Of a stretch of 64,000 nt of DNA, positions 4,296 to 24,935 are shown in pieces (positions within the stretch are counted from its first letter, which is position 1; the number at the start of each line of letters is the position of its first letter). The DNA lies in assembly GCF_018623055.1 (NCBI RefSeq), contig NZ_CP076019.1, forward strand, positions 434,001 to 498,000. The letters run 5' to 3'. Under the pieces are notes generated by a model, which was not told the origin of the DNA, made no database searches, and saw nothing but the letters and a program-made list of their open reading frames with translations. A program made the translations under genes and the position numbers. The DNA is from Halorubrum sp. 2020YC2 (GTDB lineage: Archaea > Halobacteriota > Halobacteria > Halobacteriales > Haloferacaceae).

Positions 4296-5813
4296 TCAGG
4301 GCCCGCGAAGCGTCTCCCCCGCGCCGTTCCGGTGTGACGCCTCGTCCGTCACGCTCGTCGCGGCGACGGTCGTCGTCCGCGTGAGGCGCTCGGGCGTGAG
4401 TCCGCCGCAGAGCTGGCTCCCCTCGACGGCCCCGCCGCCCAGCACCGGCGCCGCCTCGAACCCGTTCGAGCGCGCGCCCGTCGCGGCGATCCCCGGCTGG
4501 TTGACGACGAGGCGCCCGGGAGAGAGCCGCTCCGCGACGCGTCGCGCGCGGCGCTGCTGGGTGGTGTGGACCGCCGCGGCGTGGGGGGTACCGATCTCGG
4601 CCGCGAGCGCCGTCGCGGCGTCGAACCCGTCGCGGCCGTGGACGGCTATCGCGGGGACCCCGGACAGCGTCGCGAGCGGGTCGTCGGCGCCGTCGGGTTC
4701 GGCAACGAAAAAGGCCGCCTCTCTGGCCGGACTCGGGAGGTCGAGCGCGGCCGCCAGCCAGCGGGGAGAGTTGCCGCGCGGATCCGTCTCGCCGTCGACC
4801 GCTCCCGCCTCGCCGTCGACCGCTCCGCCCACCGCCTCGTCGCCTCCCCGCGAGCCGTCGAGCAGCGCCCGGAAGCGGTCGCGCTCGGCGGCGTTGAGGA
4901 CGTACCCGCCCTCCTCCTCTAAGGCGGTACACAGCGGGCCGACGGCCGGCGAGACCGTGACGACCGCGGCGTCGCCCGCGGGGTGGGCCCCGAAGTCGTA
5001 GGTCGCCCCCACCGCCACCCGCGTCGCCACGGCCTCGGGGGGAACCGACCCGTCCGCGACGGAGACGACGCCGTCCGCGCCGGCGGCGACGTTCGGCGTC
5101 CCGCAGCGCTGCCCCGCCGCGACCGTCGCCTCGGACCCCGCCGCGACGACGAAGTCGGCGCGCTCGAACAGCGCGTCCGTCTCGGGCTTCGAGGCCGGCG
5201 CGGGCAGCATCGAGACCGCGCCGGTCGGCGCCCCCGCGTCGGAGAGCGCGCGGCGGACGGTCTCGACGACGACGTCGCAGGTCTCGACGGTCGACGGCGA
5301 GGGCGCCAAGACGACCGCGTTCCGGGTCGCGAGCCCGTACAGCGAGAGGACGGCGGGGACTACGACCGGGTGCGCCGCGGGGACGGACGCCCCGACGACG
5401 CCCATCGGACCGGCGACGGTCACCGTGCCCGCCGCGCCGTCGCGGTCGACCGCGCCCGCGGTCGGCGCGCTCCGGAGCGTCCGCCGGGCGGCGTCGAGTT
5501 CGGTCGCGACCTTCTCGGCCTTCGTCCCCGGGTGGCCTCGCCCCGTCTCGTTCGCCGCCGACCGCGCGAGGCGACTGACCGCCTCCCCGTCCGCCAGCCG
5601 CTCGCCGACCGCCCGCACGAGGCCGTCGACGGCGTCGGGCTCCCACGCGGCCAGTTCGCCGGCCGCCGTCCGCGCCGCCGCGACGGCCCGCCCCGCGCGC
5701 CCCAGCGAGTCCGCGGTGGGTCCCCCCGGTTCGTTCCGGGTGCTCGCTTCCGTTTCGTCGAGTCGGTTCGCCGTTCCCGGTCCGTCGCCCTCGCCGCTTC
5801 GCTCCCGTCCCAT
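4296..5813 (-). CDS. Aldehyde-dehydrogenase superfamily protein of the acylating (EutE/AdhE) type, catalytic Cys absent
   Basis: 505 aa. The fold is recognisable from blocks that match AdhE/EutE acylating aldehyde dehydrogenases: GPMGVV (135-140), a PAAHPVVVPAVLSL-type helix (145-158), TRNAVVLAPSPS (163-174), GGYVLN (302-307) and, near the end, LVVNQPGIAATG. The active-site block FDNGMICASEQ of E. coli AdhE aligns with YDFGAHPAGDA at 272-282, which puts Pro278 at the thiol position; His277 is adjacent. No other Cys sits in the block. Dehydrogenase activity is therefore doubtful, and a non-catalytic or binding role is inferred. N-terminal ~35 residues are low complexity. Divergent from the large regulator at 5930, with a palindrome between them. 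Confidence 0.75.
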   Translation of the reverse strand: MGRERSGEGDGPGTANRLDETEASTRNEPGGPTADSLGRAGRAVAAARTAAGELAAWEPDAVDGLVRAVGERLADGEAVSRLARSAANETGRGHPGTKAEKVATELDAARRTLRSAPTAGAVDRDGAAGTVTVAGPMGVVGASVPAAHPVVVPAVLSLYGLATRNAVVLAPSPSTVETCDVVVETVRRALSDAGAPTGAVSMLPAPASKPETDALFERADFVVAAGSEATVAAGQRCGTPNVAAGADGVVSVADGSVPPEAVATRVAVGATYDFGAHPAGDAAVVTVSPAVGPLCTALEEEGGYVLNAAERDRFRALLDGSRGGDEAVGGAVDGEAGAVDGETDPRGNSPRWLAAALDLPSPAREAAFFVAEPDGADDPLATLSGVPAIAVHGRDGFDAATALAAEIGTPHAAAVHTTQQRRARRVAERLSPGRLVVNQPGIAATGARSNGFEAAPVLGGGAVEGSQLCGGLTPERLTRTTTVAATSVTDEASHRNGAGETLRGP

Positions 5814-5836: not shown

Positions 5837-5844
5837 CCTTATTC
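5837..5844 (-). promoter_or_regulatory. Putative TATA box of the aldehyde-dehydrogenase homologue
   Basis: GAATAAGG on the minus strand, 24-31 bases before its ATG (5813-5811). It is one half of a compact divergent promoter region. Confidence 0.45.
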
Positions 5845-5851
5845 TCACCCC

Positions 5852-5868
5852 GTGAAACACTGTGTCAC
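5852..5868. promoter_or_regulatory. Near-perfect 17-bp palindrome between divergent promoters (operator candidate)
   Basis: GTGAAACACTGTGTCAC: the outer GTGA/TCAC arms and inner ACA/TGT triplets match in dyad symmetry. It lies between the TATA boxes of the aldehyde-dehydrogenase homologue and the HTH-ATPase-TPR regulator, the position expected for a shared operator. The regulator may be autoregulated here (inference). Confidence 0.5.
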
Positions 5869-5898
5869 CGCGTGCGGCGAGCCGTCACTGAGGAAACA

Positions 5899-5906
5899 GT
5901 TATATC
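5899..5906 (+). promoter_or_regulatory. Putative TATA box of the large regulator
   Basis: GTTATATC, 24-31 bases before the ATG at 5930. Good spacing for a leaderless haloarchaeal message. Confidence 0.5.
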
Positions 5907-5929: not shown

Positions 5930-8900
5930 ATGACTGAGCCGTCGGAGCTCGTGGGCGTCGTCGAACGGCGCCTCGACTTCCTCGAACGGCTCGCCGCGGA
6001 ACCGCTGCGGAAACACGAGCTCGTCGACGCGCTCGGCCACTCCCGGTCGACGGTGAACCGCGCGATAGACGAGCTGGAGGCGGCGGGGCTCGTCGCCGGC
6101 GAGACGGACGGCTACCGGACGACCCTCTCCGGGCGGCTGCTCGCGAACGCGTACCGCGAGTTCCTGACGGTCGCGGACGACCTCTCGGCCGCGGGCGACG
6201 TGCTCGACCCGCTCGGCGCCGACGCCGACGTCTCCGCCGCGATCCTGCGCGGAGCCGAGACGTACCGGGCCGCGGCCCCGGACCCGTACCGGCCGCTGGA
6301 GGTCCTCGACGACGCGCTGGCCGACGCCGACGCGGTCGCCGCCGCGCTGCCGGCGTTCCCCTACCCCCGGGTCGCGGAGCGGCTCCGGCGCGCGGCCGCC
6401 GGCGGCGGGACCGTCGAGCTCGCGCTGGCGGAGCGGGCGTACGGACACGCCGCCGACCGGTTCGCGGACGACCTCGGAGCCGTCGCGCGCCGGGAGGGGT
6501 GCCGGATCGCGACGGTCGACGACGTCGACGTGGGGGCGGTCGCGGCGGACGGGGTCGCGCTGCTCCTCACCTTCGACGACGGCGCGCTCCACGGCGCGGC
6601 GGTCTCGACCGACCCCGAGGCGGTCGCGTGGGCGGAGGCGCGGGTCAGCGAGCTGATCGACGGGGGAAGCGACGGCGGCGAGACGCTCGCGGCGATGGGT
6701 CAAGCCGGGGCGGACTCACACGAGGGGCGGTCGGGCGAATCCGAAGCCGACAGCCGGCCGAGCGGTTCCCCGGCCGACTCCTCGGGCGCGGAAGGACGCG
6801 GCGACGGGGTCGCGGACTCGGGAGGGGACGGCGACGGGACAGCGGAGTCGGGACGGAGCGACGGCGACGCGCTCTTCGGGCGGTCGAGTCCGGACCGACC
6901 GGGGCGCGACGCGCTCTCGGGGCAGGGGTTCCACCCGGTCGACGAGGACCGGCTCGCGGGGGACCCGGACCCGTACGGACCGCTCCGCGCCACGGCGTCG
7001 TTCCCGGAGGTCGACGCGGGGTACGTCCTCGACAGGACGACGGTCCGCGGCGACGAGCGGCGGTCGATCGCCGGGCTGTTGATCGAGGGGCTCGCGGCCG
7101 GGACCGACCACGCGCTGGTCGGCCCGCCGGGCAGCGGGAAGAGCACCGTCTGCCGGTCCGTCGCGGTCGCGTGGTACCGGTCGGGGCGCGGTCCGGTCAC
7201 CTACCGGCCGGGCGCCGGCGGCGAGGCGTTCACCGCGACCGAGCGCCTGCGGGAGCGCGTCACCGAGAGCGACGGGCACCACCTCGTGGTGGTCGAGGAC
7301 GCCGTCGACCCCGGGGCGGCCGAGGCGATCGGCGTCGCCCGCGAACTGGCCGACCGCGACGACGTGTCCTTCCTCTTCGACGCCCGGGAGGAGCCGTACG
7401 ACGACCCCGACGGGCTCCCCCTCTCGCCGGCGGACCTCCGCTACCGCCGAGCGATAGCGACCGTGCGGATGCCCCGGCTCGACGAGCGCGAGGTCGAGCG
7501 GTTCGTCGGCCACCTCACCGAGCGCACCGGCTCCGCCCCGACCGCCGACGCGGGGTCCCTCCTCACCGACGTGCGGCGCGCCGACGACGAGCGCGTCGGA
7601 GAGCTGCTGTGTCTCGTCCACCACCTCGTCCGCGCGACCGAGGGCCGGGCCGACGGCGCCGGCGGGAGCGGCCCCGAGACGGCGTCCGGACTACGGGGGG
7701 CGGTCGCCGAGTCGGTCCGCGATGCCCGGAACCGGCCGCCGCCGCCGGCGGACGTGGCGGTGCTGGTGAACCTCCTCAACGTCGCCGGCGTCGGTGACGT
7801 CCGGACTCTGGCGTACGCGCTCGTCGACGGGCCGGAGCGGGACGCCGACGCGGGGGGGAGCGGGGCCTCGTCACCGACCGTCGACGAGGTCCGCCGGGCG
7901 CTCGAACGACTGGTCGGAACCGCCCTCGTCGAGTCCGGAGACGGGGGGTACCGGACCGTCCACGACGAGTGGTCGGTGCTGTTCCTGGAACGGTTCGTCG
8001 AGCGGGAACCGGCGCCGGTCGTCGCCAGGCGCGTGGGCCGGGTCGTCTCCCGGGTGCTCGCGCTCGCTGACGACCCCGCGCGTCGATCCCGCGTGCGGCG
8101 GGCCGTCGGCGGGGACGCGCCGACGGTGGACCGGATCGAGCGCCACCCGGGCGCGTGGGCCGCCGAGACGGTCCGCGCGGCGTACGGGGCCGGTCGCCGC
8201 TACCCCCGGCTCGCGGCGCTGTACGGTCGCGTCCGCTACGCTTGGATCGACCTCCCGGACGCGTGTCCGGACGGCCTGCGCGACCGTCCGCCGGAGTGGG
8301 TGGCGCGGATGTACGTCGACGCCGGGGACCTCGACGGCGCGACGGCCGCCCTGGACGCGTGGCGACCGACCGACGGGACCGCGGCGGCCGAGCGCCAGCG
8401 CGGGTACGGCGACGTCGCGCGGCGCCGCGGCGAGTACGACGCCGCGCGCGAGCGGTTCGAGCGGGCCGAGGAGCTGTTCACGGCCGCGGGCGACCGCGCC
8501 GGGTTGGCGGCGGCTGTCAGGGGGCGCGCGCAGGCGGCCCACTTCGACGGCGACTACGAGGTCGCCTACGAGGCGGCCTCGCGGGCGTACGCCATCGCCG
8601 CGGCGGCCGGCGACCCGATCGGGAGGGCGAAGGCGCTGATGGACGCCGGGAACGCGCTCGATGCGCTCGACGGGACCGACGCGGTCCTCGACCACTACCG
8701 GGTCGCCGGCGACCTGTTCCGCGCGCACGACGACACCCACGGGGAGGCGAACGTCCGGACGAACCTCGCGGTCGCGCTGCGGCGGCGGGGGGACCTCGAC
8801 GCGGCCGAGCGGACCGCGAGCCGCGCGCTCGACGGCTACCGGACGGTCGGTGACGAGCACCGGGAGGCCATCTCCCTCCTGAACCTCGCGGCGGTGGCCG

Positions 8901-9691
8901 AGCAGCGCGGCGCGGTCGCGGAGGCGGTCGACCGCGCGTCCGAGGCGCGAGCCATCGCCCGGCGGCTCGGCTCGGAGATGTACGAGGCGTTCGCGCTGAG
9001 CCACCTCGGCAGCGCGGCCCACCTCGCCGGCGACCTCGACCGGGCGGAGCGGTTCCTGACGGCCGCGCTCGACCGCCTCGACGCGCTCGACGCCGAGACC
9101 CGGTGCGCGATGGTGACCGCGGTCCTGGCGGAGGTGGCTGTCGAGCGCGGCGACCTGTCGGAGGCCGAGCGGCGGGCGGAGCGGACCGGGTCGCTGCTCG
9201 ACGGCCACGCCGGCCACAAGCGGTTGGCCGAGCTGAACCGGATCAGGGGTCGGCTGGCGCTCGCGCGGGGAGACGGCGACGCGGCGGCGACGGCGCTGAC
9301 GGACGCGGTCGACGCCGCGAGGGCGGGCGGGTTCACGCAGGCCGAGGCGCAGGCGCTCGCGGCGCTGGGCGCCGCCGAGGCCGAGCGCGGCGACGCCGTC
9401 GCGGCGGCAGACCGGCTGACCGCGGCGCTCGACCTCGCCAGTCGGATCGAGGGCGCCCGCGCGACCGTCGCGGCGGCCGACCGGCTCGCGGCCCTGCTCG
9501 CCCGGGAGCCAGACGGAGCGAGCGAGGCCGACGGACTCAACCGCGAGGAACTGGCCGAGGCGCTCCGGGCGTCGCCGCCGGAGTCGGTCCCGGCGAGCAG
9601 GGCCGCGGACCCGGTCGCGTATCGCGAGGTCGCTGACCGGTGGCGCGTCGACGGCGACGGGGTCGCCGCGACGTACCCCGCGCTCGGCTGA
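5930..9691 (+). CDS. Large multidomain regulator: winged HTH, FilR1-like domain, P-loop NTPase, TPR array
   Basis: 1253 aa. In order: N-terminal winged HTH (about 8-75; LVDALGHSRSTVNRAIDELEAAGLV is a clear HTH plus wing start). Next a domain resembling the middle domain of haloarchaeal FilR1-type regulators (about 115-240; PYRPLEVLDDAL and DDGALHGAAVST are typical). A Gly/Ser/Asp-rich linker covers about 245-335. A P-loop ATPase follows with Walker A GPPGSGKST at 398-406 and Walker B LVVVED at 452-457. An arginine-rich helical part leads to a long TPR-type array from about 790 to 1190. The build is STAND-like: DNA-binding head, switch ATPase, repeat sensor. The upstream codons to 5852 are not used because a TATA box sits at 5899-5906. 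The ligand is unknown; the divergent dehydrogenase homologue is the most obvious target. Confidence 0.8.
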   Translation: MTEPSELVGVVERRLDFLERLAAEPLRKHELVDALGHSRSTVNRAIDELEAAGLVAGETDGYRTTLSGRLLANAYREFLTVADDLSAAGDVLDPLGADADVSAAILRGAETYRAAAPDPYRPLEVLDDALADADAVAAALPAFPYPRVAERLRRAAAGGGTVELALAERAYGHAADRFADDLGAVARREGCRIATVDDVDVGAVAADGVALLLTFDDGALHGAAVSTDPEAVAWAEARVSELIDGGSDGGETLAAMGQAGADSHEGRSGESEADSRPSGSPADSSGAEGRGDGVADSGGDGDGTAESGRSDGDALFGRSSPDRPGRDALSGQGFHPVDEDRLAGDPDPYGPLRATASFPEVDAGYVLDRTTVRGDERRSIAGLLIEGLAAGTDHALVGPPGSGKSTVCRSVAVAWYRSGRGPVTYRPGAGGEAFTATERLRERVTESDGHHLVVVEDAVDPGAAEAIGVARELADRDDVSFLFDAREEPYDDPDGLPLSPADLRYRRAIATVRMPRLDEREVERFVGHLTERTGSAPTADAGSLLTDVRRADDERVGELLCLVHHLVRATEGRADGAGGSGPETASGLRGAVAESVRDARNRPPPPADVAVLVNLLNVAGVGDVRTLAYALVDGPERDADAGGSGASSPTVDEVRRALERLVGTALVESGDGGYRTVHDEWSVLFLERFVEREPAPVVARRVGRVVSRVLALADDPARRSRVRRAVGGDAPTVDRIERHPGAWAAETVRAAYGAGRRYPRLAALYGRVRYAWIDLPDACPDGLRDRPPEWVARMYVDAGDLDGATAALDAWRPTDGTAAAERQRGYGDVARRRGEYDAARERFERAEELFTAAGDRAGLAAAVRGRAQAAHFDGDYEVAYEAASRAYAIAAAAGDPIGRAKALMDAGNALDALDGTDAVLDHYRVAGDLFRAHDDTHGEANVRTNLAVALRRRGDLDAAERTASRALDGYRTVGDEHREAISLLNLAAVAEQRGAVAEAVDRASEARAIARRLGSEMYEAFALSHLGSAAHLAGDLDRAERFLTAALDRLDALDAETRCAMVTAVLAEVAVERGDLSEAERRAERTGSLLDGHAGHKRLAELNRIRGRLALARGDGDAAATALTDAVDAARAGGFTQAEAQALAALGAAEAERGDAVAAADRLTAALDLASRIEGARATVAAADRLAALLAREPDGASEADGLNREELAEALRASPPESVPASRAADPVAYREVADRWRVDGDGVAATYPALG

Positions 9692-23024: not shown

Positions 23025-24935
23025 TCACTCCGTCCGGAACTCGAACCGCGCTCCGCCGCTCTCGGCGGGACACGCGGCGACGGTCCAGCCGTGCGCCTCG
23101 GCAATTCGCTCGCTGATCGCCAGCCCGAGTCCCGTGCCCGACTCCTCGGTCGTGAACCCGCTCTCGAACACCCGGTCGATGTCGTCCTCCGGGAGCCCCC
23201 GCCCGTCGTCTTCGACGTAGAAGCCGTCCACGACGGTGCCGTCGTCCTCACGGAGGGCCGCAACGCCCACGCGGACCGAGAGTGGCGCGTCCGGAGGGCT
23301 GTCGCCGTGTTCCACGCTGTCGTCGGGCTCCGCCCGACTGCTCGTGGAACCGTGTTCCACACTGTTCCGAAAGACGTTCTCGAACAGTTCGCGAAGCCGC
23401 GTGCGGTTCGCCTCCAGCGTCGTGTCCGAGTCGACGGTCAGGGTCGCGCCGTCGGTGTCGACGCCCTCCCACGCCTCGCGGGCGATATCGGCCAGCGAGA
23501 CGGACTCCGTCTCTCCGACCGACCGCCCCTGTCTGGCCAGCGACAGGAGGTCCTCGACGAGTTCGTCCATCCGACCGATCGCGTCCGCGGCCCTGTCGAG
23601 GTGGTCCATGTCGCCGGTCTCGCGAGCGAGGTCGACGTACCCCTCCGCGACCGACAGCGGGTTTCGGAGGTCGTGTGACACGATGGACGCGAACTCGTCG
23701 AGCCGCTCGTTCTGCCGTCTGAGCGTCTCCTCGCGCTCTCGCCGGTCGGTGACGTCGGTGTAGATGGCGTAGCCGGCGGCGTTCTCCGCGTCGAGGCGGA
23801 TCGGGATGACGTGGAGGATGAAGTGACGGGTCCCGTCGGCGGTCGTCCGGGCCACCTCCCGGCGGACGTTCTCGCCGCGCTGTAACCGCTCGTTGAGGTC
23901 GTCGGCCTCCGGTCCGGAGCCGGCGGGCACGATGTAATCGTCGATCGACTCTCCGGTCACCGTCTCCGCGTCGTATCCGAACGTCTCCTCGAACGCGTCG
24001 TTCACCTGCCGGACGATTGGGTCGCCGTCGACGTAGTCGTAGGCGATGGCGGGGTCCGGGACGTTCGTGAACAGCGCGAGCAGCCTGTCGCGTTCCGTCC
24101 GAAGAGTCTCGGTAACGGCGATCCGATCGAGCGTCTCTTCGAGGTGGGAGCCGAGCAGCTCCGCCAGTCGCCGGTCGTCGTCGTCGAACCCGTCCGCCCC
24201 GGCGGCGAGCTGAAAGACGACGTCGTCTCCGACCGGGACGGTGAGCAGCGTGTCGAACCGGCTCTCGGGGTTCGGGTTCGGCGCGATAGACGCGTTCCCG
24301 GTCCGGACGGCACGCCCGGCCACTCCGCCGCCGACGCGGACTCGGTTACAGTCCTCGACCGGCGTCCCGCTGGAGGCGACCACCGGCTCGACCCACTCCC
24401 CGTCGCGGACGGCGACCACGGACTGGTACTCCGGGAACACCTGCTCCGCGACGGCGGTGACGGCACGGTACGCCTCGTCGACCGATCTGACGGCGGCCAG
24501 CTCCGCCATCCCAGCGTTGAGCTGTTCGATCCGCGAGGGAGTCCGCGTCGGTTCCGACCGGACGACCGACCGCCGGTCGCGGGCGAGGAGCCACGCCACG
24601 GTGTCCGAAAGCGCCTCGGGCGTCCCGGCGGTCGCGTCCACGACCGGGTCGGTCGCGGTCTCGCCAGCCGGGTCATCGACGTACGCGACCACGGCGCCGT
24701 CGCGGTCGACCGACCGGACGCGTTCGAGCCCCGCCTCGTCGACGACGACGGTCACGTCGACGTCGGTGATCTGCGCCTCGTCGGCCGCGTCCGAGGTAAC
24801 GGCGTGCGCCTTGACCGCGAACGTCCCGTCGCCGTCGTCCACGCGGGGTTCGAGCCGCGCCTCGAGGTCCTCGGAGAGCTCGGGGTCACCGCTGAGCACG
24901 AGAACCGACGCGTGCTCGCCCAACGCAGAAGTCAC
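23025..24935 (-). CDS. Sensor histidine kinase: divergent receiver-like, GAF, PAS, HisKA, HATPase
   Basis: 636 aa, no membrane helices, so a cytoplasmic sensor. In order: an N-terminal receiver-like fold (1-125; [18 protein letters not shown], but the acidic pocket is incomplete), GAF (about 135-272), PAS (about 285-395, ending in the PAC string [12 protein letters not shown]), and HisKA with phospho-acceptor His421 in [11 protein letters not shown]. The HATPase has an N-box ([14 protein letters not shown], 517-529), G1 DDGRG (576-580) and G2 GTGLGL (600-605). Starts with GTG. A TATA box lies at 24961-24969. No response regulator gene is adjacent; the signal is unknown. Confidence 0.9.

Follow-up and report, generated by a model that had tools for sequence, protein, structure and literature searches.

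A regulator gene and its divergent neighbour

Within the window, by which we mean the whole 64,000-nt stretch of Halorubrum sp. 2020YC2 analysed here, an uninterrupted frame of 1253 codons (5930-9691, plus strand) encodes a predicted regulator, and a second gene, here called the partner, reads away from it on the other strand. Three blocks between the two start codons are conserved in 23 aligned orthologous loci, a few of which are near-identical: a TATA-like element of the partner, a palindrome, and the BRE/TATA of the regulator. The features are as follows:

4296..5813, minus strand: partner gene, 505-aa homologue of CoA-acylating aldehyde dehydrogenases (PDB and NCBIfam matches, motifs, co-occurrence)
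5838..5851, minus strand: likely BRE/TATA of the partner, reverse complement of CTTATTCTCACCCC, some 27 nt ahead of the start codon (block shared by 23 loci; predicted function)
5852..5868, no strand: 17-bp palindrome GTGAAACACTGTGTCAC, a candidate operator (block shared by 23 loci)
5890..5905, plus strand: likely BRE/TATA of the regulator, GAGGAAACAGTTATAT, some 27 nt ahead of the start codon (block shared by 23 loci; predicted function)
5930..9691, plus strand: regulator gene, 1253 aa (open frame, Pfam, orthologues)
5960..6169, plus strand: winged HTH (wHTH), HVO_A0261_N, residues 11-80 (Pfam, alignment, model)
6284..6652, plus strand: FilR1_middle, PLD-like fold without HKD motif, residues 119-241 (Pfam, Foldseek, motif scan)
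6665..6964, plus strand: Gly/Ser/Asp-rich linker, residues 246-345 (composition)
7040..7879, plus strand: STAND-type NTPase core and helical part, about residues 371-650 (Pfam, homologue alignment, model, Foldseek, motif scan)
7880..8005, plus strand: STAND-core winged-helix domain with VHDEW motif, about residues 651-692 (alignment, model)
8342..9529, plus strand: TPR array, presumed sensor, about residues 805-1200 (Pfam, NCBIfam, PDB TPR matches)

Since the ATG at 5930 is kept across all 23 loci and preceded at about 27 nt by a TATA-like block, it is likely the start of the regulator, and the mRNA is probably leaderless.

What kind of protein does this frame encode? The earlier note on this DNA had read it as one fusion of a wHTH, a FilR1-like domain at around 115-240, a P-loop ATPase and TPRs, with an acidic linker between head and ATPase, and Pfam, motifs and full-length orthologues bear this out. 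HVO_A0261_N (E 1.5e-16, 60.5 bits against a cut-off of 35) and FilR1_middle (E 6.6e-14, 52.5 bits against 27) make up a head modelled by AlphaFold from 35 homologues at a mean pLDDT of 95; the linker is 22% acidic and 8% basic; and TPR_12 matches the C-terminal part (E 7e-21). Under their Pfam cut-offs are nSTAND_NTPase5 at residues 396-488 (E 4e-5, 23.9 bits; cut-off 34), TPR_MalT on the tail, and TrmB on the head (18.4 bits; cut-off 25.6). In the wHTH, the segment HSRSTVNRAI occupies residues 37-46, with S38, T41 and R44 invariant in the head alignment. The Walker A motif GPPGSGKST lies at residues 398-406, the Walker B motif LVVVEDA, which fits the pattern hhhh[DE]D, at 452-458, and VHDEW starts at residue 677, its His being His678; a motif scan of the PLD-like domain found no HKD motif. 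The combination of wHTH and FilR1_middle (DUF1724) is shared with FilR1 of Methanosaeta harundinacea. FilR1, however, ends in a REC domain (PMC5847659), whereas the C-terminal part here consists of NTPase and TPR, and no such REC domain is among the 25 of 36 Pfam families listed for the regulator.

Structural comparison with Foldseek places the head closest to TrmBL2 (8e-10) and TrmB (1e-5), with the middle domain matching phospholipase-D-like proteins such as NucT and FAM83. Archaeal TrmB and TrmBL2 resemble the regulator in head fold and in their palindromic operators near BRE/TATA (PMC4158304), but have neither NTPase nor TPRs. Residues 340-815 were modelled at pLDDT 87 from 38 homologues (AlphaFold). 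The ATPase, for which the earlier note had proposed a STAND-like layout, is not of an unrelated fold: its best Foldseek matches include the STAND/NLR proteins EfAvs5 (SIR2-STAND, the top match, 5e-7), NOD2 (2e-5) and NLRP9 (2e-4), with archaeal Orc1/Cdc6 also ranking high, Apaf-1 and archaeal STAND-like ATPases further down, and TM-scores that are low throughout (0.23-0.40). Among the 38 homologues the P-loop residues are invariant, and Walker A, Walker B, an Arg after the following strand and the winged-helix domain are kept, the latter a helix-hairpin-helix at about 651-692 with a VHxxW signature whose His is nearly invariant. Models and alignment support the assignment of a predicted STAND-type ATPase with an archaeal wHTH/TrmB-like head in front.

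Distribution and joint inheritance

The domains have not been joined by chance: other Halorubrum species have full-length orthologues (75-84% identity), and proteins with an identical order of domains are found, at roughly 25-41% identity, in further genera and families of the order. Homologue surveys drew on genus, family, order and phylum samples: within the genus, 23 of 52 genomes have an orthologue of the regulator (shortened in one), and an NTPase profile search of 120 genomes sampled across the phylum returned haloarchaeal matches only. In its own genome the regulator is single-copy, with one short FilR1-type protein elsewhere. In a tree of the NTPase, the FilR1-headed proteins group together, apart from homologues without an N-terminal FilR1 match. 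Judged by these sequence comparisons, the FilR1-headed STAND regulator is an established family in haloarchaea. The earlier impression of an unusual archaeal version thus holds against described regulators, but not among haloarchaea, several families of which have this architecture. Our search of the open-access literature found no paper on HVO_A0261 and none on archaeal STAND transcription factors.

The surveys also returned haloarchaeal STAND-TPR proteins with a related NTPase and N-terminal regions in which Pfam finds no head (L033, 3282-6818; L034, 3204-6323; L035, L041, L042, L043 and L057), which are candidates for effector-headed relatives; the L034 gene lies near TnpB-like genes.

The earlier note had covered neither the divergent partner gene, nor the operator, nor co-inheritance. 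Of the 52 genomes of the genus, 23 have both regulator and partner and the others have neither; one gene was never seen alone, and wherever loci were seen the two are adjacent and divergent. Under free shuffling such exact co-occurrence would have a chance near 3e-15, a figure that is indicative only, as the genomes are related. In the orthologous loci the pair always has the same surroundings, made up of dapB, dapA, HD-phosphohydrolase and PUA genes. Of the genomes that lack the regulator, 12 were sampled, and none has either gene at this place: eight leave 0-206 bp between HD and PUA, and the other four have about 1.5 kb of other DNA there (L077, L078, L079 and L081). A four-gene tree interleaves holders and non-holders, and we count no fewer than five gains or losses on it. 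At 800-892 of the window, within dapB and on the other strand, ARAGORN reports a tRNA-Gly (ccc), probably a false positive.

This context bears on the earlier hint at a defence sensor, that is, a STAND protein that senses viral proteins and acts via transcription or abortive infection. Such a role would agree with EfAvs5 as the top structural match of the NTPase, with the patchy presence among close relatives and with the existence of relatives with other N-termini. Avs-type anti-phage STAND proteins, in contrast, come with an effector domain and a defence context, neither of which was found here: a head predicted to bind DNA stands in place of an effector, the pair keeps its place between housekeeping genes in every holder, the candidate operator is single and dedicated, and PADLOC matches only the TPR and generic HTH parts. 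We regard a defence function as very improbable.

A pair that comes and goes on the tree could also be a decaying relic without present function. The gains or losses counted above would be compatible with this, as would one genome (G017) whose regulator gene (L045, 3955-5202, minus strand) carries a natural in-frame deletion of about residues 292-1128: the remaining 416-aa protein consists of the head and the C-terminal tail, with the NTPase and most TPRs gone and operator and partner still there. In this genome, the head may work on its own, or the gene may be decaying. Both genes, however, are under purifying selection (dN/dS 0.22-0.47 for the partner, which indicates that the protein is maintained, and about 0.32-0.42 for the regulator), the operator is conserved and the genes are full-length in most holders, so that we give the relic reading hardly any credence.

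The shared promoter region

The palindrome was recognised from the locus alignment, a repeat search having missed it because mismatches break the seed. In its perfect form, GTGAAACACTGTGTCAC occurs once in the whole genome, and in most genomes that hold the pair it is the sole site. The genome has a second near-match next to a TnpB-like transposon gene, and the window's second-best match is a weakly operator-like palindrome at 23344-23360 (GTGGAACCGTGTTCCAC) within a histidine-kinase gene; both were discounted as chance. When 430 kb of other loci were scanned, no more than three distinct strong sites came up, each of them at a regulator locus from one of two other families: G174 has one in front of its regulator and one in front of the adjacent gene, and G160 has one between the regulator and a divergent gene. 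The scanned loci had been fetched because they hold a regulator; the sites nonetheless lie at promoters and not at random places. Since the neighbouring genes in G174 and G160 are unrelated to the aldehyde dehydrogenase partner, the operator-like site follows the regulator. The majority of the distant FilR1-headed homologues have neither palindrome nor partner. We also considered a lipoprotein as common partner at distant regulator loci but dismissed the idea, those neighbours being unrelated to each other; the best operator match outside the genus lies in the promoter region of a Tat-type lipoprotein gene (L087, 9479-10474, minus strand).

Would the regulator activate or repress? The palindrome lies upstream of both BRE/TATA elements, a position that goes with activation for TrmBL1 and Tgr, while TrmB represses malE from a BRE/TATA site (PMC4158304). 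On the latter model, the head would silence the shared promoter region and the NTPase/TPR part would release it on a signal. Consistent with this, the palindrome directly adjoins the partner's BRE, so that a protein bound there could get in the way of TFB, and the head and operator left in the G017 deletion would suffice for repression. Against it stand the activation-type position of the site and the precedent of known STAND transcription regulators such as MalT and AfsR, which are activators. We consider repression rather unlikely and prefer activation as the predicted outcome.

The partner protein and a proposed switch

The partner aligns across nearly its whole length with SauS, SucD and AdhE (PDB 8cei, E 9e-33; NCBIfam SauS, E 9e-58, below the equivalog cut-off), but in all its orthologues, unlike in these enzymes, both the catalytic Cys and the active-site Asn are replaced. 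In an alignment with solved SucD- and AdhE-type structures, the reference Cys motif YDNGIICSSEQ corresponds to TYDFG[AS]HPA[GA]DAA, which places the invariant Pro278 at the Cys position, and the Asn of the active-site TNP motif corresponds to the likewise invariant His148; together with His277, the latter forms a pair of invariant histidines in the former active site. The partner is thus best read, from its sequence, as a catalytically dead relative of CoA-acylating aldehyde dehydrogenases. Elsewhere in the family, outside this genus, it is absent, except for a 33% homologue in G123 (L083, 8719-13833). There, both catalytic residues are intact, and the neighbours are a short HVO_A0261/FilR1-type regulator, a SnoaL-like gene and a CoA ligase, an arrangement that may show the origin of the regulator-partner pair. 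No paper on an aldehyde-dehydrogenase pseudoenzyme acting as a regulator was found in the open-access literature. Co-inheritance and the lost catalytic residues together point to a two-gene sensing module, as yet undescribed.

How might such a module work? The reading we favour, and consider probable, is that of an ATP-gated, TPR-sensing archaeal STAND transcription factor that serves its own locus only; the dead enzyme would be its target and most likely also its sensor or antagonist. The TrmB-like head, comprising the wHTH and an inactive PLD-like domain, would bind the single palindromic operator between the two divergent genes; NTPase and winged-helix domain would make up a switch that is closed with ADP and open with ATP; the TPR array would sense a ligand or a partner protein; and the open regulator would oligomerise and activate one or both flanking promoters. 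The model for the partner's role is MalT, which is held inactive by the enzyme-like proteins MalY, Aes and MalK (PMC10427625). Because of this precedent, and because the dead enzyme was never found without the regulator, the partner is a natural candidate for the inhibitor. Alternatively, it may present a ligand, for instance an acyl-CoA, an aldehyde or an NAD cofactor. Several observations count against this favoured reading: the nSTAND_NTPase5 match below cut-off, the low TM-scores, the lack of palindrome and partner in the majority of the distant homologues, and the G017 deletion.

The partner could instead be a plain regulated output, an ALDH fold with a changed or non-catalytic job such as ligand storage or altered chemistry, while the TPRs of the regulator sense a small molecule without protein contact. 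Divergent genes around a shared operator are the ordinary layout of a regulator and its target, the invariant His277 and His148 could serve another function, and many STAND regulators bind small inducers, as MalT does maltotriose (PMC10427625). Loss of both catalytic residues, however, speaks against ordinary ALDH chemistry, and this explanation leaves open why the partner never occurs without the regulator in the genus, although a dedicated target could show the same pattern. We take it to be a real possibility, if on balance not the probable one.

A stricter form of the favoured two-gene switch may be ventured, somewhat doubtfully: the dead CoA-acylating aldehyde dehydrogenase, retained solely to bind its former ligands, would gate the STAND factor via the TPRs, and the factor would control only the shared promoter region. 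Like MalT of Escherichia coli, the regulator combines a STAND core, a helical-repeat sensor and a DNA-binding domain in one chain. In MalT, however, the DNA-binding domain is C-terminal, whereas here an archaeal wHTH and PLD-like head is N-terminal, and the putative partner, whose contact with the regulator we infer, differs from the MalT inhibitors in being an aldehyde-dehydrogenase relative. AfsR of Streptomyces (SARP-NOD-TPR) likewise adds NOD and TPR to a DNA-binding regulator (PMC10936776), but with a bacterial SARP head and a different operator and partners.

STAND regulators themselves are known; what is new here is a STAND transcription regulator variant coupled to a pseudoenzyme. So far, STAND switches have been studied as bacterial transcription activators and immune sensors, and an archaeal member with a TrmB-like head represents the same chassis joined to archaeal regulation. 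With a single regulator, a single site and a single partner, and with cultured strains among the species, the question of what is sensed becomes small and testable. If true, the stricter form of the switch would give archaea an equivalent of MalT-MalY, built on another enzyme and another DNA-binding head.
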